Assembly: GCF_040412085.2 (NCBI RefSeq)
Contig: NZ_CP115920.1
Coordinates: 1,054,001-1,118,000 of the forward strand
Reading direction: 5' to 3'
Origin: Vibrio sp. CB1-14
GTDB taxonomy: Bacteria; Pseudomonadota; Gammaproteobacteria; Enterobacterales; Vibrionaceae
DNA length: 64,000 bases
In this document: one piece after another, positions 15,601-23,237 of the stretch
Position numbering within the stretch: position 1 is the first letter of the stretch
Layout: every line of letters starts with the position of its first letter
Notes under the pieces: model-generated
The model's database searches: none
The model's input: only the letters and a program-made list of their open reading frames with translations
Told to the model about the DNA's origin: nothing
Program-made: the position numbers and the translations under genes

Positions 15601-16773
15601 ATGGGCATCACTCAGCACACAACGGGTCATGACAATGTACGTTCCATTGCTAACTTGCAAATGCTCTGTGGCAATGTTGGTGTTGAAGGTGGCGGTATTA
15701 ACCCGCTTCGTGGTCAATCAAACGTACAAGGCTCTTGTGATATGGGGGCGCTGCCAACCGATTTCCCAGGCTATCAAAAAGTCACCGATCCAGAGGTGCA
15801 AGCGAAGTTTGCCAAAGTATGGAACAGTGACAACCTGCCAACCGAGCGCGGTAAGACGCTGACAGAGATCATCGACGGAGCCTGTGATGGCGACATCAAA
15901 GCCTTGTACGTGATGGGTGAGAACCCAGTATTGAGCGACCCAGATCAAGCACACGCGGTGCATGGTTTAAAATCTTTGGACTTCTTGATAGTGCAAGATA
16001 TCTTCCTCACCGAGACCGCGCAGCTAGCCGATGTCGTATTGCCTTCCTATTCCTTTGCCGAAAAAGCGGGGCACTTCACCAATACCGAACGACGAGTACA
16101 ACGTTTGGTACCGGCTGTACAAGCCCCGGGCGAGGCGCGTGAAGATTGGCAAATTATCCAATCTATCGCTAATGCGATGGGTAGCGATTGGCAATATGAG
16201 TCGGTTCAGGACATCACCGAAGAGATCGCTGATGTGACGCCGCAATACCACGGTATTCGCTGGCAGTCGGTGGGTAAAAATGGATTGCAGTGGCCGTGTA
16301 ATAACGTTAAGCCATTTGGTACTCGCATTATGCACCAAGACCAGTTTATTCGTGGTAAAGGTGCAATGGCAGCGATTCCATTTGAGTATGCGGCTGAGCT
16401 TCCGGATAAAGAGTTCCCTATGGTCCTCACCACAGGTCGCTTGCTTGAGCAGTTCCACACTGGAACCATGACGCGTAAAACCAAAGGGTTAGATAACCTT
16501 GCGGGGCCGCGCATTATGATGAGTGTAGAAGATGCCGAGGCGATGGGCGTCGCGAATGGCCAGCCAGTTAAGCTAGTGTCACGCCGTGGTGAGATCTCCG
16601 CGCCAGCGTTTGTTACTAAACGTATGCAGCAAGGGGTAGTGTTTGTCCCCTTCCATTTTGCAGAATCGGCGGCTAATAAACTCACTAATACGGCAACCGA
16701 TCCTCACGCCAAAATACCCGAGTTTAAGGTATCGGCAGTCAGATTGGAGCGGGTCACTCAGGCGGCGATGTAG
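12658..16773 (+). CDS. Single-chain formate dehydrogenase fused to an NAD(P)H:FAD (GltD-like) module
   Basis: A 1371-residue iron-sulfur molybdoenzyme predicted to oxidise formate and pass electrons to NAD(P) within one chain. In order: a 2Fe-2S domain (residues 1-75, CSISKHAEKQSCDMC); a GltD-like cysteine-rich segment (ACPANVDIQTYL, GRVCPAFCEHEC) with FAD site VAIVGAGPGGLACGY and NAD(P) site VAVIGGGNTAIDCAR; two 4Fe-4S clusters (CISCGSCVHAC, CIQCGACVQVC); the 4Fe-4S entry of the Mo domain (CTYCGVGCRVE); and the bis-MGD domain. The Mo ligand is Cys823 in CARLCHSST, where selenoproteins have Sec. NPLRGQSNVQGSCDMGALP is a formate dehydrogenase signature. I chose ATG 12658 because the 2Fe-2S domain begins there; an earlier in-frame start adds 24 unlike residues. 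Confidence 0.88.
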   Translation: MNVIINGQSYLLRDSKSILDVAKDIKVDVPSLCSISKHAEKQSCDMCVVEVVGQGVVKACETQVQDGMTIVTESTQLNTLRRQALNKIFADHNADCEAPCKVACPANVDIQTYLYHIAEADHHQAVKVIKDTLPMPISIGRVCPAFCEHECRRSLVDEPLAIRQLKRHAADIDLSLAEQFEPSKLPYNGHRVAIVGAGPGGLACGYYLSYQGFAVDVFESMPQAGGWLRYGIPEYRLPKDILDKEIELMCRGGMQIRTNTVLGKDVTLDDLTANYEAVCLAVGATKAVNMPYPGSDLDGCILGVDYLKDHMTDKHFTMGRKVAVIGGGNTAIDCARTAIREGADTTIIYRRTRNEMPAELHEIEAAELEGVKFKFLTNPKSNVADEKGRVKAIELEVMALGEPDSSGRRRPVSTGETQTLEFDTVISALSQKPDVEFLKTARQSLPLTDWGTASADGDSMHHGYNVYSIGDFRRGPATAIEAIADGKKAADAIERYILEGHFKPEPAPFNSRKAERLTEVRQAEYLQERAKSRAKATHLDVELCQTSYQEVELGMTDADAIAEAARCLECGCQANTQCDLRDYASEYQVDYREIDTEDRKMFPVDKSSEFIVFDANRCISCGSCVHACQTESVHGILNFSESAHRPSFPDGATMGDSNCIQCGACVQVCPTGALVDKRDKSHSRVEMLTPVKTICTYCGVGCRVEMYVDAANNKIRYVKGDPTSPVNQGMLCVKGRFGFDFIHSDERLTTPLIRKAGELVPASWDETISYVADKLTKIKSMYGSDSLAGFSSAKTTNEDNYAFQKLFRRELGTNNIDHCARLCHSSTVTGLEASFGSGAMTNDIPSIAHSDVIFIIGSDTSAAHPIIASHIKQAIAGGARLLVADPKRIDMADHAELYVRHRPGTDVMLLNAIMHVIDKNGWHDQAFIDERTEGYESFVTEIRKPDYSPENAALITGVAAFDIERVAELIGTAKVTSVFYSMGITQHTTGHDNVRSIANLQMLCGNVGVEGGGINPLRGQSNVQGSCDMGALPTDFPGYQKVTDPEVQAKFAKVWNSDNLPTERGKTLTEIIDGACDGDIKALYVMGENPVLSDPDQAHAVHGLKSLDFLIVQDIFLTETAQLADVVLPSYSFAEKAGHFTNTERRVQRLVPAVQAPGEAREDWQIIQSIANAMGSDWQYESVQDITEEIADVTPQYHGIRWQSVGKNGLQWPCNNVKPFGTRIMHQDQFIRGKGAMAAIPFEYAAELPDKEFPMVLTTGRLLEQFHTGTMTRKTKGLDNLAGPRIMMSVEDAEAMGVANGQPVKLVSRRGEISAPAFVTKRMQQGVVFVPFHFAESAANKLTNTATDPHAKIPEFKVSAVRLERVTQAAM

Positions 16774-17887
16774 TATCACTCCAAGTTTTTAGGATATCGA
16801 AAGGAGGCAAGCCATTGGGCTTGCTTCTTTGCCCTTGGCGCCATGCTTTTAGCTGATTGACGTAGGTAAGAATGTGCGCCACGGCAACGAACAGTTGATT
16901 GGGCACCATTTGATCGATTTGCGTGGTGTGATAGATAGCTCGGGTCAGTTCTGGGCTTTGCACGACTTCAACTTGATGCTTTGCCGCGAGTTCACGTATG
17001 TATACTGCTACATCGTTTTTTCCTTTCGCAACGACAAAGGGTGCTTCGGCTTGGGAGAGGTCGTAGACAAGTGCCACGCTATAGTGGGTTGGGTTAGTCA
17101 GTACGACACTGGCGTTCGGCACTCGCTCGTTGGCACCTCGTTTGGCATTCTGTGTTTGGATCTGCCGAATACGCGCTTTTACCTCGGGTCGCCCTTCTTG
17201 CTCTTTGTGCTCATCTTTTACCTCTTGCTTAGTCATTTTCATTTGCTTGGTGAACTCATGGCGTTGATAGGGAAAATCAATCAGTCCAAACAGTAAATAG
17301 CCCAAATACTCGACAGTAATTGAGCTTACAGTCGCGAGCACATTATCAAACGGCGCGCTAACAAGGCCGGTAATCACAGCCATGTACTGATTGATGACCC
17401 AATAGAGGATGGCGAAAAACAGCGACACCTTTACCGTATTTTTTATCAGCTCGACCACAGACTGGGTCGAGAAGATGCGTTTCAGTCCTTTGAGCGGGCT
17501 GATGCGCTCAAGCTTCGGTGCCAGCAGAGTCGGACTGTACACCCAGCCTCCCAATAGTGTTGAGCCTAAAATTGCGCTAATGAGCTGGTAGATCAACAGA
17601 GGAAAGAACAGCATGATCATCGCAAACAGTGCTTTGCCGACTAGCTCAATAAGCAGATGAAACTGGCCAATGATACTGATATCGAATTCATAGCAAATCA
17701 AAAACAGCTCAATCAAAGTTTGCCCAAGTCTATCTATGTTCAATACGTAATAGGCGACAACGACAACTAGCGTGAGTGAGGAGACAAAGTCTTTAGCTCT
17801 GGGGATCTGACCTTCCCGACGTGCCTTAGCCAACTTGTGCTGGCTGGGCAGTTCACTTTTGTCACCGCTGTCCTGATTATCAGCCAT
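16754..17887 (-). CDS. flhB: Lateral-flagellum-type export gate protein FlhB
   Basis: FlhB is the flagellar export switch protein. The 377-residue product is full length. It has the basic N-terminus (KLAKARREGQIPRAKD), four membrane segments, and a cytoplasmic domain with the self-cleaving NPTH motif at residues 265-268. The start overlaps fliR by eight bases, as in an intact operon. However, its last codons overlap the 3' end of the formate dehydrogenase gene by 20 bases, and flhA, which normally follows, is absent. With fliP broken and fliQ lost, the gate it serves cannot be assembled from this locus alone. Confidence 0.93.
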   Translation of the reverse strand: MADNQDSGDKSELPSQHKLAKARREGQIPRAKDFVSSLTLVVVVAYYVLNIDRLGQTLIELFLICYEFDISIIGQFHLLIELVGKALFAMIMLFFPLLIYQLISAILGSTLLGGWVYSPTLLAPKLERISPLKGLKRIFSTQSVVELIKNTVKVSLFFAILYWVINQYMAVITGLVSAPFDNVLATVSSITVEYLGYLLFGLIDFPYQRHEFTKQMKMTKQEVKDEHKEQEGRPEVKARIRQIQTQNAKRGANERVPNASVVLTNPTHYSVALVYDLSQAEAPFVVAKGKNDVAVYIRELAAKHQVEVVQSPELTRAIYHTTQIDQMVPNQLFVAVAHILTYVNQLKAWRQGQRSKPNGLPPFDILKTWSDTTSPPE

Positions 17888-18659
17888 TCGGAAGCCTCAA
17901 GATGTAATTGAGGTGTCGATTAAGCTCCAGTGCCAATTCAAAGTAATGATCGCCAATCCCAGTCAGCGACGCCATCATGGCAAAGAGCCCCAGTAACATA
18001 GTCATCGGAAAGCCAAGGGCGAAGACGTTAAGCGCTGGTGCTGCCTTATTCATTAATCCAAAGGTGATGTTACTGAGTAGCATGACAACAATCGCTGGGG
18101 CGGCCACTAGCAGCCCGGTTGCGAACATCCACGACACCATTTTGAGAACATAGTCGATGCTGGTAAAGGGAAACAGAGAGTCGAGTGGCCAGTGGGTGAA
18201 GCTGTTTTTAAGTTGCAGCAACACAATAAGATGACCATCGATGGATAGAAATAGCAGCATCGCAGTGATAAACATAATTCGACCGATAATCGCGATGCTT
18301 ACCCCATTGGCTGGGTCGTTCATAATCGCCATTGCCAGCCCCATTTGCATGGATATCGCTTGCCCAGCTATTGAGAAGATGGTGAAGAAAATCATCACCG
18401 CAAAGCCGATGAGAAACCCAAAGATCAATTGGTAAAGCGTGAAGATAATCGCGTCAATGGAGAATGGGTTGAAAGGGGGAACCGTGTCGATCATGGGAGC
18501 GAGTAGCAATGAGAATACAAATGCGAACAAAATTTTCACTCGCATCGGTATCGCTTTGTCGACGAAAAAGGGTGCAATCACAAACAGACCCGTTAAGCGC
18601 ACAAATGGCCACCAAATCAACCCAAGCCATTGCGTGATTTCGGTAAACGTGATGACCAT
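17880..18659 (-). CDS. fliR: Lateral-flagellum-type export gate protein FliR
   Basis: FliR forms the inner-membrane export gate with FliP and FliQ. The product is 259 residues, a normal length, with about six membrane segments, the family stretch GLAMAIMNDPANGVS near residue 110 and PALNVFALGFPMTMLLGL near residue 210. It appears intact. Its ATG lies only nine bases beyond the early stop of fliP, where fliQ (about 90 codons) should be. Downstream it overlaps flhB. Confidence 0.93.
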   Translation of the reverse strand: MVITFTEITQWLGLIWWPFVRLTGLFVIAPFFVDKAIPMRVKILFAFVFSLLLAPMIDTVPPFNPFSIDAIIFTLYQLIFGFLIGFAVMIFFTIFSIAGQAISMQMGLAMAIMNDPANGVSIAIIGRIMFITAMLLFLSIDGHLIVLLQLKNSFTHWPLDSLFPFTSIDYVLKMVSWMFATGLLVAAPAIVVMLLSNITFGLMNKAAPALNVFALGFPMTMLLGLFAMMASLTGIGDHYFELALELNRHLNYILRLPNG

Positions 18660-18668
18660 GGCATCACC

Positions 18669-19271
18669 CTACCTCAGTAGGAATGGCAAAAACAACATAA
18701 AGCCTATCTGAAAGGCCACTTTGAGTTCGCTGAGCAAATAGGCAGGCAAAAGAATAAGAAAAGGGATGGCTTCCTCGTCAGCGATTTTGGTTTCACCAGC
18801 GATCTTGGTGACTTGCTCTAGCGCTTTGCGCTGAGTTTGGTCGAGCATATAGCGCCGCAGCGGCTTCTCGGCGGTTTTGAGTGCTTGAATCAAGGTAGCT
18901 TCGCCATTGCTATAGGGCACGTAGGCGTCGTCGTAGATTTTTGTCCATACTGGGCGCATGATGAGCAGGGTAAAAATGAGCGCAATGCCGACCAGCACTT
19001 GATTGGGCGGGGTTTGCTGCAAGCCCAGAGCTTGACGAAGAATGGCAAGCACAATCACGATGCGAGTGAAGCTGGTACACATGATGACAAACGCAGGTAC
19101 AAAGCTGAGCAGCGTCATCAAGATCAGAATTTGCAGTTTTACGCTGTATTCTGTGCCATTGTCACCTTGAGTCTCGGTTAAAATGGTCAGCCCCTCGGCG
19201 TTCGCGAGGTAGGGCATTAGAAGCATTGAACAACCAACCAACCTTAGTGCGATTCGCAATGATCGTGTCAT
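18669..19271 (-). pseudogene. fliP: Truncated export gate gene fliP (C-terminal part lost with fliQ)
   Basis: The 200-residue product has a signal peptide (MTRSLRIALRLVGCSMLLM), the FliP signatures LSFVPAFVIMCTSFTRIVIV and LRQALGLQQTPPNQVL, and ends in VAFQIGFMLFLPFLLR. In intact FliP proteins the corresponding FLPFL is followed by about 50 more residues forming the last membrane segments. Here the frame hits TAG three codons past FLPF and fliR begins within ten bases. This is a deletion scar that removed the fliP end and all of fliQ. An alternative, a short natural FliP, is unlikely because no fliQ is present. Confidence 0.88.
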
Positions 19272-19281
19272 GAGCGCTTAC

Positions 19282-19671
19282 CTACTGACTTGGCTTTTTA
19301 ATGATGCTAAGCAGCCTGACACCATACTGGCCATTTTTAGACACGATCTCACCAGTGCCAAAAGAGGTGCCGTTAATTTTAATATCCACAGGATCGCCTT
19401 CGTGTTTCTCTAGCATAACAACACTGCCTGATTTGAGGTTGAGCAGCTCATCCAAGATCAGAGTCTTACGAGCAACCTCAACGGTGATATCGACCGGAAT
19501 ACTTTTTAGCAGGTTCACACTGCTTGCCGGCGAACTCTCGCTGGTATGCAGTTCTTCGTCTTCGAGATCGTCAAGATCCAAATCTAAATCGTCGAGATCA
19601 GGCAGTTCATCTTGTAGGTTCATGTCTTCGATGGAGACGTCGAGGTCTCGCGTTGGTTTGTTTTCAGCCAT
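19282..19671 (-). CDS. fliN: Flagellar C-ring protein FliN (lateral type)
   Basis: FliN forms the base of the flagellar switch complex. The 129-residue product has an acidic Asp/Leu-rich N-terminus (DELPDLDDLDLDLDDLEDEE) and a C-terminal SpoA domain with IPVDITVEVARKTLILDELL and VMLEKHEGDPVDIKING, the expected length and layout. It appears intact and overlaps the fliM remnant upstream by eight bases. Its SpoA partner FliM is broken here. Confidence 0.92.
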   Translation of the reverse strand: MAENKPTRDLDVSIEDMNLQDELPDLDDLDLDLDDLEDEELHTSESSPASSVNLLKSIPVDITVEVARKTLILDELLNLKSGSVVMLEKHEGDPVDIKINGTSFGTGEIVSKNGQYGVRLLSIIKKPSQ

Positions 19672-20077
19672 CGATCTTCACTCCCAGCTCTGAGTCTATG
19701 GTTTGCAGTTTGCCAAAAAAGGTCGGATGTCCGTTGACCTTGATGGTGAGGTTTTTACATAGCGTCAAAGGCAGTACATCACCCGGTGCCAATTTTGACA
19801 GCTCGTGCAAGGTGCACTGACCCGTTAACAGCACACAACCTAGCTCAACAGGTTGATAGCGCAGGGTGTTGAGGATCTCGTCTCTATCGAAGGTTTCATT
19901 GTTGCCGAGCATTTCCCGTAGCTTCTTCACATAGCGATCGTCGATCATGATGGTGATCGCTATCTCTTGATGATCGACACGAAAAACAATGTTGACCCCA
20001 ACGTTGGACGGCTCGTGTTCAGTGTTGTCGAGTAGGTAGTGTTTGGCGTCAGCCGTCATGATGTTGGCAAGTGCCAT
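19664..20077 (-). pseudogene. fliM: C-terminal fragment of fliM
   Basis: The readable product is 137 residues, against roughly 300 or more for a full FliM. It keeps the end of the middle domain (FRVDHQEIAITIMIDDRYVKKL) and the SpoA domain (VELGCVLLTGQCTLHELSKL, GDVLPL, NGHPTFFGKL). The N-terminal FliG- and CheY-binding parts are missing. The fragment begins where a rightward fliL-like fragment begins (20071), so the two share the break. The ATG at 20077 is probably an internal methionine codon left near the junction. Confidence 0.85.
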
Positions 20078-20388
20078 TGGATGTACCTTTAGAGCAGGTT
20101 GAAGTTCAGGTGGATAACGTGCTGGTACCCATCAATCTGGGTAACCGCCAAAGTTTATTGCTGCTGGATGTGTCACTGTTCACGCCCAGTAGCAATGAGA
20201 TCTACTTGAATGAGCAGCGCAGTCGAATCAAAAATCGAATCATTAAGAAATTCAGCGTGAAAGACAGGGAGTACTTTTTCAATAAAGAGTTTATCTATGT
20301 GATACAAGACGACCTCAAAGATGACCTATCCGAGGTAGCGTCTTTGCAGGTGGGCGATGTGCTCGTGACTAAGGCTGTGTTTCAGTAG
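20071..20388 (+). pseudogene. C-terminal fragment of a FliL-like gene (lafF position)
   Basis: The readable 105-residue product matches the FliL pattern. It has VPINLGNRQSLLLLDVSLFT, then RSRIKNRIIKKFSVKDREYF, then LQVGDVLVTKAVFQ at the end, comparable with the usual VxDVLFTxFVxQ ending. The N-terminal membrane segment of FliL is absent. The apparent GTG start at 20071 overlaps the leftward fliM fragment by seven bases. In the lateral system of Vibrio parahaemolyticus a FliL-like gene directly precedes the sigma-28, MotA and MotB genes, as here. Confidence 0.72.
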
Positions 20389-20393
20389 GTGGC

Positions 20394-21104
20394 ATGATGT
20401 TACTGCAACCTAAGTATCAACACACTCAAACCGAAGAGGAATCAAGCATTCAAGAGCTTGAGAAGTTGGTGTTGCAGAAAAACTTAAAGCTCATTAATAG
20501 GCTCTTGTACCAATACCGTTACGCCGTCGACGAAGGGACGTTTGAAGACTTACGCCAGACCGCCATGATGACCTTGGTCATTGAGCTGCGAAAGTTTGAT
20601 CACGTTGCGAATGATGATTTTAGACGCGCGGTCGCAGTGAGGATCCGAGGTGAGTTGGTGGATGAACTTCGGCGGCGTGATTATATGGAGCGTGACAAGC
20701 GTCAGCTCGTCAACCGTATTAAGTTTGCCCAGCAGAAGCTAGTCCAGCAGCTTAACCGAGAGCCTACCACCGTTGAAGTTTGTCACTTTCTCGGTATCGA
20801 GGACAGTGACTTTCAAAAGGCCATGAGTCTGGTGGATGTATTTGATGATATTGAGCTGGAAAATGTGGTCACGGCAGTGCCGGAAACAGACCGACAGTTG
20901 CTGTTTGAGGAAGTCAGAGAGGTGCTAGAGACCTTGCCGGAAATGGAAAAACGAATTCTGTATCTGGTGTATGTCAAAAGTCTCAACACCAAAGAGGTGG
21001 CATTGGTACTCGATGTCAATGAAACCAAGGTGCATAGATTAAAGCATCGAGGGTTGGACATTCTGAAAAGCAGAATGAGGGAGAGTGACGCATGCAAAAG
21101 TTGA
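20394..21104 (+). CDS. lafS: Sigma-28-family sigma factor, lateral-flagellum type (LafS-like)
   Basis: A 236-residue FliA-type sigma factor. Region 2 includes YRYAVDEGTFEDLRQTAMMTL and the region 2.4/3 stretch VRIRGELVDELRRRDY; region 4 includes LPEMEKRILYLVYVKSLNTKEVALVLDVNETKVHRLKHRGL. In lateral systems this factor transcribes flagellin, stator and late genes. The frame is intact. ATG 20394 and ATG 20397 are adjacent candidates. The next gene starts inside its last five codons (13-base overlap). Confidence 0.9.
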   Translation: MMLLQPKYQHTQTEEESSIQELEKLVLQKNLKLINRLLYQYRYAVDEGTFEDLRQTAMMTLVIELRKFDHVANDDFRRAVAVRIRGELVDELRRRDYMERDKRQLVNRIKFAQQKLVQQLNREPTTVEVCHFLGIEDSDFQKAMSLVDVFDDIELENVVTAVPETDRQLLFEEVREVLETLPEMEKRILYLVYVKSLNTKEVALVLDVNETKVHRLKHRGLDILKSRMRESDACKS

Positions 21105-21958
21105 TAGGTGTTGTCGTCGTACTCAGCGTCATTTTTGGTGGCTTTATTTTCCTAGGTGGTAAATTTGAGTTCATCTTTAAGTGGTCTGAAATCATTATTA
21201 TTTTTGGTGCTGCCTTTGCGAGCTTATTAATGTCGACAACATCGGGCACGCTCAAGTTAATGACGCAGCAACTTGGGTTGGCTTTCCGAGCCACACCTCA
21301 CAATAAAGACTACTACCAAGAGCTACTCTCTTTGATGTTTGAGCTTATCAATATTGCGCGGGTGCAAAACATTAAGGCTCTTGATATCCACGTAGAGAAT
21401 CCGGACTCCAGTAAGATTTTTGCTAAGTATCCTATGGTGACTAAGGATACCTTGACCACTAATTTTATTATCGATTCGTTCAGGCAGGTGATCACCGGTA
21501 AGAAGTCACACCATCTACTTGAGGCGTTTTTAGAAGAAGAAATTGAACACCTTGAAGACGAATACACCAAGCCGTCTGAAAAGCTGCATGCTACCGCTGA
21601 GGCAATGCCTGGGCTCGGCATCTTAGCGGCGGTGATGGGGATCATTTTAACCATGCAAGGCTTAGATGGTGAGATTTCTGAAATCGGTAAAAACATTGCA
21701 GCGGCATTGGTGGGAACCTTTACTGGTGTATTTGGTTGTTACTGTGTTTTAGGGCCAATGTCGAGCAGCATCAAGGATGTGTCAGAAAGTCAGGTTGCGC
21801 CACTGCAGTGCGTGAAATCGATATTGTCTGCTTACTCTCAAGGTCAGTCGGCGCACATGTGTGCTAACGCCGGTAGGAAAAATATTGAAACCCGCTATAA
21901 ACCGTCGTTTGTTGAGCTGGAAAAAGCCGTAGAAGTGTTGCGTTCTCAGCCGTCTTAA
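21092..21958 (+). CDS. lafT: MotA-type stator protein (LafT-like)
   Basis: MotA-type proteins form the ion-channel stator with MotB. The 288-residue product has the four-segment MotA layout: two early membrane helices (VVVLSVIFGGFIFLGG; EIIIIFGAAFASLLMS), a large cytoplasmic loop, and the late pair including MPGLGILAAVMGIILTMQGL and AAALVGTFTGVFGCYCVLGP. The frame is intact. It overlaps the sigma gene by 13 bases and lies 48 bases before the MotB gene. Lateral stators of this group are proton-driven; the ion here is inferred from the family. Confidence 0.92.
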   Translation: MQKLIGVVVVLSVIFGGFIFLGGKFEFIFKWSEIIIIFGAAFASLLMSTTSGTLKLMTQQLGLAFRATPHNKDYYQELLSLMFELINIARVQNIKALDIHVENPDSSKIFAKYPMVTKDTLTTNFIIDSFRQVITGKKSHHLLEAFLEEEIEHLEDEYTKPSEKLHATAEAMPGLGILAAVMGIILTMQGLDGEISEIGKNIAAALVGTFTGVFGCYCVLGPMSSSIKDVSESQVAPLQCVKSILSAYSQGQSAHMCANAGRKNIETRYKPSFVELEKAVEVLRSQPS

Positions 21959-22006
21959 TGCAACAGAACCGCTCACAACCTAATCCCAACCAAGGGAGGA
22001 GCCGCT

Positions 22007-22954
22007 ATGGAGCAGCCCATTGTTTTTGCCAGAAAAGGCCGCAAAAAACGTGATCCTCTGCAACATGGTGGCTGGAAGGTTGCGATGGCCGATTTGATGA
22101 TCTCTCTAATGTGCTTGTTCTTGGTGCTGTGGATTTTACAAGTTGTCGATGTGGAAGATCAGAAGAAGCTGCTTAACTACTTTGCTTATGGTAACGATCC
22201 GATTCAGCATCATGGCACAACGGAAACCGGCGGTAACTCGGTGAATCCGCTGCCACTGCCTTCGGTCGCCACTTCTCATTACGATGCCGATCTGCATCGA
22301 ATTAATGATACATCGGTATTGTCCGGTGAGTTTAACAGTCAACAAGAACTTGAAGTGCTCGCCGAGCGGGTTAAACAGCAGCTAAGCGGTATTGATGCGC
22401 TGGGTAGCGTTGCGGTTGTCATCACGCCGCAAGGTCTAAAACTGGTGATTGCTGATTCTGAAAAAGGGCCAATGTTTTATCGCGGAGGCGCTAAAGTCAC
22501 ACCGTTTTATCAAGACTTGTTACTCAGCTTGGCTCGGCTACTTTCCAGCATTGAGAACAAAATGATCATCACAGGTCACACCGATGCAAGCCGCTTTAAA
22601 GGTGGACGCACGACCAACTGGGAGCTATCGAGCAATCGAGCGAACAGTGCTCGTTATTATCTCGACAAAGGAGGGCTACAAGAACGACACATCTTTCAGG
22701 TATCCGGAATGAGCGATACGGCGCCGATTGATCTCGATAACCCTAAGTCTGGCATCAACCGGCGTATCGAGTTGTATATTTTGACCGCTGAAACTCTACG
22801 TCAGCTCAACAAAGTTTATAAAGAGTTTGCCGCGTTCAGTTTTAATGAGCAAAAGCTCGATTCTCTGATAGACAGTTCAAAGCAGCAGGCGATTCGAGAA
22901 GCGACAAGGAATCAGCCAATCACGCCTTTCGAGGTAATGAAACGCTATGACTAA
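22007..22954 (+). CDS. lafU: MotB-type stator protein (LafU-like)
   Basis: MotB-type proteins anchor the stator to peptidoglycan. The 315-residue product has a short basic cytoplasmic tail, one membrane helix with the essential ion-binding aspartate (Asp29 in VAMADLMISLMCLFLVLW), and an OmpA-like peptidoglycan-binding domain (MIITGHTDASRF, NWELSSNRANSARYYL, INRRIELYIL). The frame is intact. A strong AAGGGAGGAG ribosome binding site precedes ATG 22007. The next gene overlaps its end by eight bases. Confidence 0.93.
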   Translation: MEQPIVFARKGRKKRDPLQHGGWKVAMADLMISLMCLFLVLWILQVVDVEDQKKLLNYFAYGNDPIQHHGTTETGGNSVNPLPLPSVATSHYDADLHRINDTSVLSGEFNSQQELEVLAERVKQQLSGIDALGSVAVVITPQGLKLVIADSEKGPMFYRGGAKVTPFYQDLLLSLARLLSSIENKMIITGHTDASRFKGGRTTNWELSSNRANSARYYLDKGGLQERHIFQVSGMSDTAPIDLDNPKSGINRRIELYILTAETLRQLNKVYKEFAAFSFNEQKLDSLIDSSKQQAIREATRNQPITPFEVMKRYD

Positions 22955-23237
22955 CCTAGTGATCCCCAGTACCAACATGCGTAAGTGCCTTGCGTGGCTC
23001 ATTGTTGTTGATTATCTGTTGATCGCCTTTTATGTCTATCTGGCGACCAGCTTACTCTATTTCGATGTTTTCTTGATTGGCGTGCTGATTGCGGTCTACA
23101 ACCTTCTTATGGTCACTTTTGTGGTGAAACAACCGGCGGGGTTTATTACGTTATCCCGTGACAAACACCTAGTATTACCGATTTGCTTTGCCGCATTCTT
23201 AGGATCAGTGATTGTGGTCTTGACGGTGTTTTGGTGA
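22947..23237 (+). CDS. Small membrane protein coupled to the MotB-type gene
   Basis: A 96-residue protein with three likely membrane helices (about residues 14-34, 37-58 and 73-95) and a short basic loop (KQPAGFITLSRDKH). It begins inside the last codons of the MotB gene, so translation is probably coupled. I recognise no family. Its position suggests a link with the stator pair or a remnant of the lateral locus; no function can be read from the sequence. Confidence 0.65.
   Translation: MTNLVIPSTNMRKCLAWLIVVDYLLIAFYVYLATSLLYFDVFLIGVLIAVYNLLMVTFVVKQPAGFITLSRDKHLVLPICFAAFLGSVIVVLTVFW

Follow-up and report, generated by a model that had tools for sequence, protein, structure and literature searches.

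A remnant of a third, lateral-like flagellar system in Vibrio CB1-14, and its intact relatives in which export ATPase genes are not found

Introduction

A flagellar locus on chromosome 1 of Vibrio CB1-14 (V. chaetopteri CB1-14T) raises the question of what a set of ten genes, seven of them with full-length reading frames, represents when flhA and fliQ are missing from it. The locus lies in a stretch of 64,000 nucleotides, referred to here as the window, which covers positions 1054001-1118000 of chromosome 1 (C1, 3,497,892 bases; genome 5,543,559 bp). The evidence set out below leads us to conclude that what is left of a third, lateral-like flagellar system, now dead, very probably lies in the window, cut by two deletions whose junctions can still be read by comparison with intact loci in near relatives.

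The ten genes form a leftward block (flhB, fliR, fliP', fliN and fliM') and a rightward block (fliL', a sigma-28 factor, motA, motB and an open reading frame (ORF) of 96 amino acids (aa)); the frames of flhB, fliR, fliN, sigma, motA and motB are uninterrupted. With the two deletion scars, the features are as follows (primes mark truncated genes, and G numbers the genomes compared):

16754..17887, minus strand: flhB, 377 aa, full length (Pfam PF01312, 357.8 bits); its 3' end overlaps fdhF
17880..18659, minus strand: fliR, 259 aa, full length (PF01311 and TIGR01400 above cut-off)
18669..19271, minus strand: fliP', 200-202 aa, final fifth gone (Pfam FliP positions 1-146 of 191)
18678..18688, no strand: scar of deletion A, an 11-bp near-direct repeat, 10/11 alike (blastn and junction comparison)
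19282..19671, minus strand: fliN, 129 aa, full length (PF01052, 74.4 bits)
19664..20077, minus strand: fliM', C-terminal 137 aa (the intact FliM of G044 has 253 aa)
20073..20079, no strand: scar of deletion B, a 7-bp perfect direct repeat (blastn and junction comparison)
20071..20388, plus strand: fliL', C-terminal 105 codons (the FliL of G044 has 145 aa; Pfam FliL 24.4 bits, cut-off 24.6)
20394..21104, plus strand: sigma-28 family factor, lafS-like, full length (TIGR02479 101 bits, under the cut-off of 189.6; 99% identity to G044)
21092..21958, plus strand: motA-like stator gene, lafT-like, full length (TIGR03818 above cut-off)
22007..22954, plus strand: motB-like stator gene, lafU-like, full length (OmpA and MotB_plug domains)
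22947..23237, plus strand: orf96, the last gene of the locus, 96 aa, no family

The end block fliL-lafS-lafT-lafU is thus present in the window, the LafU model NF005273 matching below its cut-off.

Two deletion scars

Compared with V. maritimus JCM 19240 (G059), whose DNA is 90-91% identical, the window is short of 414 bp and 23,729 bp (blastn), and the remainder of window positions 12.0-27.6 kb aligns with small gaps only. Deletion A (414 bp) removes the 3' end of fliP along with fliQ, while deletion B (23,729 bp) extends from the front of fliM through the front of fliL. The ends of deletion B share a perfect 7-bp repeat, a match of at least 7 bp occurring in 0.054% of random nearby end pairs; those of deletion A share an 11-bp repeat with one mismatch and a longest perfect run of 6 bp (0.23% of random nearby end pairs). 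At the second junction, fliM' and fliL' overlap head to head by 7 bp, so that there is no room between the two gene blocks, and fliL' has lost its N-terminal part, including a hydrophobic stretch. A scan of positions 19500-20700 for promoters of the sigma-70 type found none (shuffles gave a mean of 1.4), and three terminator-like sites were found there against 0.9 expected.

A preliminary description made from the sequence of this stretch had read the locus as a deletion relic with three scars. The gene order that it gave, flhB-fliR-fliP-fliN-fliM followed by fliL-sigma-28-MotA-MotB, is found at the coordinates listed above, the loss of flhA and fliQ and the full frames of flhB, fliR, fliN, the sigma factor and the stator genes are confirmed, and the view of the locus as a relic with readable scars is supported by the intact relatives and the precise repeat junctions. 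The scars number two rather than three, because the relatives' flhA sits within the fliM-fliL block, that is, inside deletion B, and because flhB already abuts fdhF in relatives: fdhF directly adjoins flhB in G052 and G035, and a single unbroken DNA match spans fdhF-flhB-fliR in G044 and G059. The identical abutment in relatives rules out a third scar at this boundary.

The truncation sets the window apart within the genus. A near FliP (E <= 1e-75) was found in 19 of 227 genomes, 18 of which have a frame of 253-300 aa, the window's alone being short; a database FliP that differs at 2 of the 198 residues preceding the junction is also still full length. Positions 18000-22000 of the window were unmatched in 72,556 plasmid records, searched in 'near' mode only. 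No second copy of the scar was listed in a database search for truncated FliM, whose length limits excluded full-length FliM and which did not list the window's own FliM' either. One truncated database FliM (103 aa, V. maritimus JCM19235) probably reflects a frame break in the assembly.

The intact locus in relatives

A lafS-like sigma factor more than 38% identical to that of the window occurs in ten others among 148 genomes of the genus: G059 (100%), G044 (99%), G052 (94%), G035 (83%), G118 (fragments, 81-82%), G147 (80%), G056 (74%), G145 (48%), G092 (47%) and G057 (39%). Nine of these ten have about 23-29 kb between the fliM and fliL sides, G118 being too fragmented, and a tenth intact copy, in V. 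maritimus CAIM 1455 (G176), has 35 kb. In near relatives, the intact orthologous locus stands at the same site, between fdhF and selO. It reads flhB-fliR-fliQ-fliP-fliN-fliM leftward, flgBCDEFGHIJKL-motY-fliEFG-orf335-flgMNA rightward, flhA leftward and lafA-fliDS-orf106-fliK-fliL-lafSTU-orf96 rightward. The genes of the G044 block were called by Pfam, flgB-L being named by domain and position and the flgN match lying below cut-off; orf335 and orf106 belong to no family. The nine other loci compared share this 36-gene layout, but in each of the three distant ones, where FliM is only 20-23% identical, one or two of flgN, orf106 and orf96 went undetected. The orf96 product is 71-97% identical to the G044 copy in six nearer relatives and 23% identical in G145, with no match in G092, G057, G159 or G209.

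In a tree of FlhA from 26 loci, built on the relatives' proteins as the window has none, the polar and the third-type sequences each form a clade with 100/100 support, the third type on a long branch. The lateral sequences do not fall on one side of a branch, and both polar and third type join among them; third-type FlhA may therefore be derived from a lateral sequence. Sigma-54 sites in the intact G044 locus were not above chance (13 against 14.5 expected and 9 against 13.1 expected).

Frame breaks in lafT and other V. maritimus genes were considered as signs of decay and rejected, since other genes in the same assemblies are also broken (selO, ompR, hk and a second flhA in JCM 19240; hk and a second flhA in CAIM 1455).

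Two features of the intact loci deserve separate mention. The gene orf335 (L037:4869-5876 and homologues) lies between fliG and flgM in the third-type locus, is conserved there and has 11 database homologues, the named ones coming from Vibrio and Photobacterium; it has no Pfam match, no NCBIfam match above cut-off and no sequence match in PDB. Its predicted structure (mean predicted local distance difference test score, pLDDT, 74) resembles flagellins (Foldseek E 2e-7), though with template-modelling (TM) scores below 0.45 and a large root-mean-square deviation. A role as substitute ATPase is thought unlikely, given the flagellin-like model and the lack of family matches; judged by the model, a filament or junction protein is more likely. 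In G176, an island between flgA and flhA (L180:14440-19852, L181:3447-6129) encodes NeuB, a DegT aminotransferase, a sugar dehydratase, an acetyltransferase, an AMP-binding protein, an MptE-like protein and FkbM, a content that we take to be as expected for nonulosonic acid decoration of flagellin. The spacing near flgA-flhA in G035 and G056 hints at extra DNA there too.

Other flagellar systems in the CB1-14 genome

The CB1-14 genome encodes FlhA, FliQ, FliH and FliI twice each above cut-off, and these pairs belong to a polar set (at about C1:2.66 Mb) and to a lateral set (C1:36.8-72 kb), here termed 'classical'. Pfam identifies in the latter FliI, FliH, FliG, FliF, FliE, a sigma-54 activator, MotY, FliM, FliP, flagellin, FliD, FliS, FliK, FliL, FlgL, FlgK, FlgJ, FlgI and FlgH, with FliJ under cut-off; homology adds flgB-G, flgA, flgM, fliN, fliQ, fliR, flhB, flhA, lafS, lafT and lafU, as well as a weak counterpart of orf96. 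Family and homology searches recovered nearly all of this set, which is apparently complete, though they did not detect flgN.

The genome was also searched for displaced third-type copies of FlhA, FliQ, flagellin, flgL and FliF and, as DNA, for the initial 11.2 kb of the deleted block; these, rather than the other lost genes singly, define the scope of the result. None of the five was found. The genome's two FliF proteins are 48% and 31% identical, flagellin is confined to the polar and classical lateral places, and the block DNA hit nothing beyond the loci of the other two systems (69-76% identity). For the genes and DNA searched, the idea that they had moved elsewhere in the genome was accordingly rejected.

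Selection and age of the loss

Codon models were fitted to 2136 codons from five taxa (the window, G176, G059, G044 and G052), limited to columns with at least four taxa and with stop codons and pieces beside frame breaks masked; flanking hk stayed outside the fits, the G044 stretch being without it. On the window branch, the ratio of nonsynonymous to synonymous rates (omega) of the relic genes is 0.063 (about 0.045-0.09), compared with 0.026 elsewhere (likelihood-ratio test statistic, LRT, 15.05). It is 0.033 on the G176 branch (LRT 0.44), and in the flank fdhF it does not rise (0.032 vs 0.027, LRT 0.32). Single-gene rises on the window branch were found for fliP (LRT 6.84), flhB (5.98) and fliN (4.54), and no significant change for fliR, fliM, fliL, lafS, lafT, lafU or orf96. 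An omega of 1 is rejected for the window branch (2dlnL 105, seven taxa).

If decay had been fully neutral after the loss, the loss would have occurred within the final 3.8% of the branch (upper value about 6.6%), or 7.6% as estimated from the left half and 1.5% from the right. At a neutral fraction of 0.038 about one stop codon is expected and none is seen, whereas neutrality along the whole branch would give 27. With only about one stop expected under recent loss, the clean frames prove nothing. Taken together, the loss is probably recent, with slight relaxation mainly in the export/switch half, and long neutral drift is rejected.

Origin and fate of the relic

We propose that the ancestor carried one intact locus between fdhF and selO, from which 414 bp and 23.7 kb were lost in two deletions, each between short direct repeats and possibly by slipped mispairing or microhomology end joining. 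They removed flagellin, rod, hook, rings, the membrane/supramembrane (MS) ring, FliG, FlhA, FliQ and the terminal parts of FliP, FliM and FliL; judged by position, the region in which both gene blocks would start went as well. With essential parts gone, what is left cannot make a flagellum and is probably silent. Since the polar and classical lateral systems persist, the loss of the third may well have been affordable, and the surviving frames would be clean because the loss is recent relative to the split from V. maritimus.

Several points weigh against this account. That the remaining genes are silent is something we infer, and the scar was read in strain CB1-14 alone, the sister strain CB2-10 (average nucleotide identity 99.7%) standing outside the comparison. 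The rise in omega is uneven between the halves: it reaches significance for the relic genes together and for the left five (0.102 vs 0.029, LRT 17.12), but not for the right five (fliL-lafSTU-orf96; 0.034, interval about 0.02-0.06, vs 0.019, LRT 2.07), and constraint on the stator/sigma half may thus persist. A single shared date for neutral decay costs about 5 in 2dlnL, as read off the likelihood grid rather than from a separate fit, and the flank ompR+selO rises to just below significance (0.103 vs 0.057, LRT 3.58).

This unevenness is what partial retention would predict, with the sigma and stator half still expressed and selected, for instance as a spare stator or sigma factor for the motor of the classical lateral system, and the left half decaying. 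The full length of the genes from lafS onward also speaks for it. However, the N-terminus of FliL' is gone, as is the region upstream of the block, the scan for sigma-70-type promoters found no site at 19500-20700, the absence of stops is as uninformative here as above, and the classical lateral set owns a sigma factor, MotA and MotB, only 26-42% identical to those of the window. We therefore regard retention as unlikely. The preliminary description had left the choice between recent loss and continued selection; posing it as a choice was sound, and the comparison of substitution rates that it proposed now favours recent loss with slight relaxation, though the right half, where the rise is not significant, may still be selected.

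The same description had taken the genes for the outer frame of the classical Vibrio lateral locus. Like-named genes in a similar outer order, lateral homologues 24-70% identical in the same genome and the way in which the third FlhA clade joins among the lateral sequences would suit a degraded classical locus. Against this, CB1-14 has a classical set at C1:36.8-72 kb that includes an FlhA, FliHIJ and a sigma-54 activator, the third-type FlhA forms its own long-branched clade, and none of the 12 intact third-type loci read yielded fliHIJ or lafK, which makes such an origin highly improbable. The preliminary description named a working second system elsewhere in the genome as something that would speak against it; polar and classical lateral sets are both present, but as paralogues and not as the missing pieces, and the genome search that it suggested turned up no displaced third-type copies of the genes searched. 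An assembly artefact, in which reads from the middle were collapsed or lost, merits equally little credence: two short-repeat junctions could in principle be misjoins, but the chromosome is described as closed at 141x coverage in the assembly details given in PMC11945961, repeats of 7 and 11 bp seem too short for the usual collapse, and the lost genes searched for were not found elsewhere in the genome.

No export ATPase genes found in third-type loci

The FliHIJ ATPase complex is usually counted as part of the flagellar core. Searches by tblastn with FliH, FliI, FliJ and LafK of the lateral set and with polar FliI found nothing convincing for fliH, fliI, fliJ or lafK in the 12 intact third-type loci. 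In ten of these the best FliI match has E 0.81, compared with E <1e-68 for the FliF and FliG controls; the best LafK match across all 12 has E 0.085. Whole-genome counts agree: among 19 relatives examined, of which G059, G118 and G176 were too fragmented to count, FlhA exceeds FliI above cut-off by exactly one in all 16 with unbroken FlhA frames.

Two kinds of genome stand out in these counts. G147 and G197 have two FlhA and one FliI, which fits a polar and a third-type set without a classical lateral set. G200 has a fourth FlhA with an adjoining FliI (G200:C25:92490-98301), giving four export sets, one still without FliI.

G159 and G209 each have a single FlhA, beside third-type genes, and the third-type locus is the sole flagellar set found in them:

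G159:C2:26.6-66.9 kb: third-type locus
G209:C9:118-148 kb: third-type locus

These loci match 34 of the 36 G044 proteins, fliM and orf96 being unmatched; in G159 a 269-aa ORF carries a FliM/N domain. Neither locus gave FliHIJ or LafK (best FliI E 0.73), and neither whole genome yielded a FliI above cut-off or any FliH match. Each has one sub-cut-off match to the FliI model (226 and 228 bits; cut-off 379.5), presumably at the level expected of ATP synthase subunits. Both assemblies are rated 100% complete, G209 in about 70 contigs. With no other set, FliI or FliH found there, borrowing of an ATPase from another flagellum would be impossible in these genomes.

Nineteen genes were compared between G159 and G209, 13 of them computable and six saturated in synonymous divergence (dS); several dS values exceed 1.5, so that the ratios of nonsynonymous to synonymous divergence (dN/dS) are rough. 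Ten of the 13 have dN/dS of 0.01-0.05, the others being fliD (0.08), motY (0.19) and lafA (0.37), and most testable genes of the sole-set locus are under strong purifying selection. Within these otherwise much diverged loci fliD is nearly identical (dS 0.03) and lafA has a low dS, which suggests recent recombination around the flagellin.

On balance, these genomic comparisons incline us to think that the relic may derive from a naturally export-ATPase-free flagellum, encoded by a complete Vibrionaceae locus under strong purifying selection, that would assemble without FliH, FliI or FliJ of its own.

Comparison with known systems

The relic is a known kind of event, and its closest parallel in the sources consulted is in E. 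coli K-12 and B, for which the account in PMC3032704 describes the Flag-2 remnants fhiA and mbhA, two pseudogenes. There, too, the two ends of a secondary locus remain and the middle is gone; by that description, the difference is that two pseudogenes are left, whereas the window keeps ten frames, seven of full length, from a lost system in which FliHIJ and LafK are not found. In Xanthomonas fuscans 4834-R, a strain-variable 33-kb flagellar region is reported as deleted en bloc; by the same passages the strain is non-motile and the deletion insertion-sequence-linked (PMC3826837), while the window lost a third system at short direct repeats.

The classical Vibrio lateral system shares with the third type a similar gene set, a LafS/LafT/LafU-like end and 24-70% protein identity; the third type differs in its own FlhA clade, in being one locus with the flg genes inside and in that no fliHIJ or lafK was found. 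Among the flag-1 to flag-5 loci of Enterobacterales, as described in PMC7526173, some genomes have three loci and decay is by deletion, but these belong to another bacterial order and the flag-1, flag-3 and flag-4 loci are there given a fliEFGHIJKLMNOPQR block, so that fliHIJ is kept. The V. mediterranei relative G035 has an intact third-type locus and three FlhA; what PMC7374056 says of the species in the portions seen concerns a dual, polar plus lateral, system only. Export driven by membrane voltage with no ATPase ring is described in PMC8179193 for Salmonella laboratory mutants without FliH and FliI; as presented there, these were laboratory-made and kept FliJ, in contrast to the third-type Vibrio locus, which is naturally without all three genes. 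By title and abstract, the open-licence literature searched described neither a third flagellar system in Vibrio nor a flagellar locus naturally lacking FliI.

Both junctions can be read and near relatives keep the locus intact, which makes the window a clear example of a third flagellar system lost en bloc. The relic itself represents ordinary decay, and the interesting part is the ATPase-less system from which it came. If the third-type locus makes flagella, species that have only this locus would provide a natural test of the dispensability of FliHIJ in wild bacteria.

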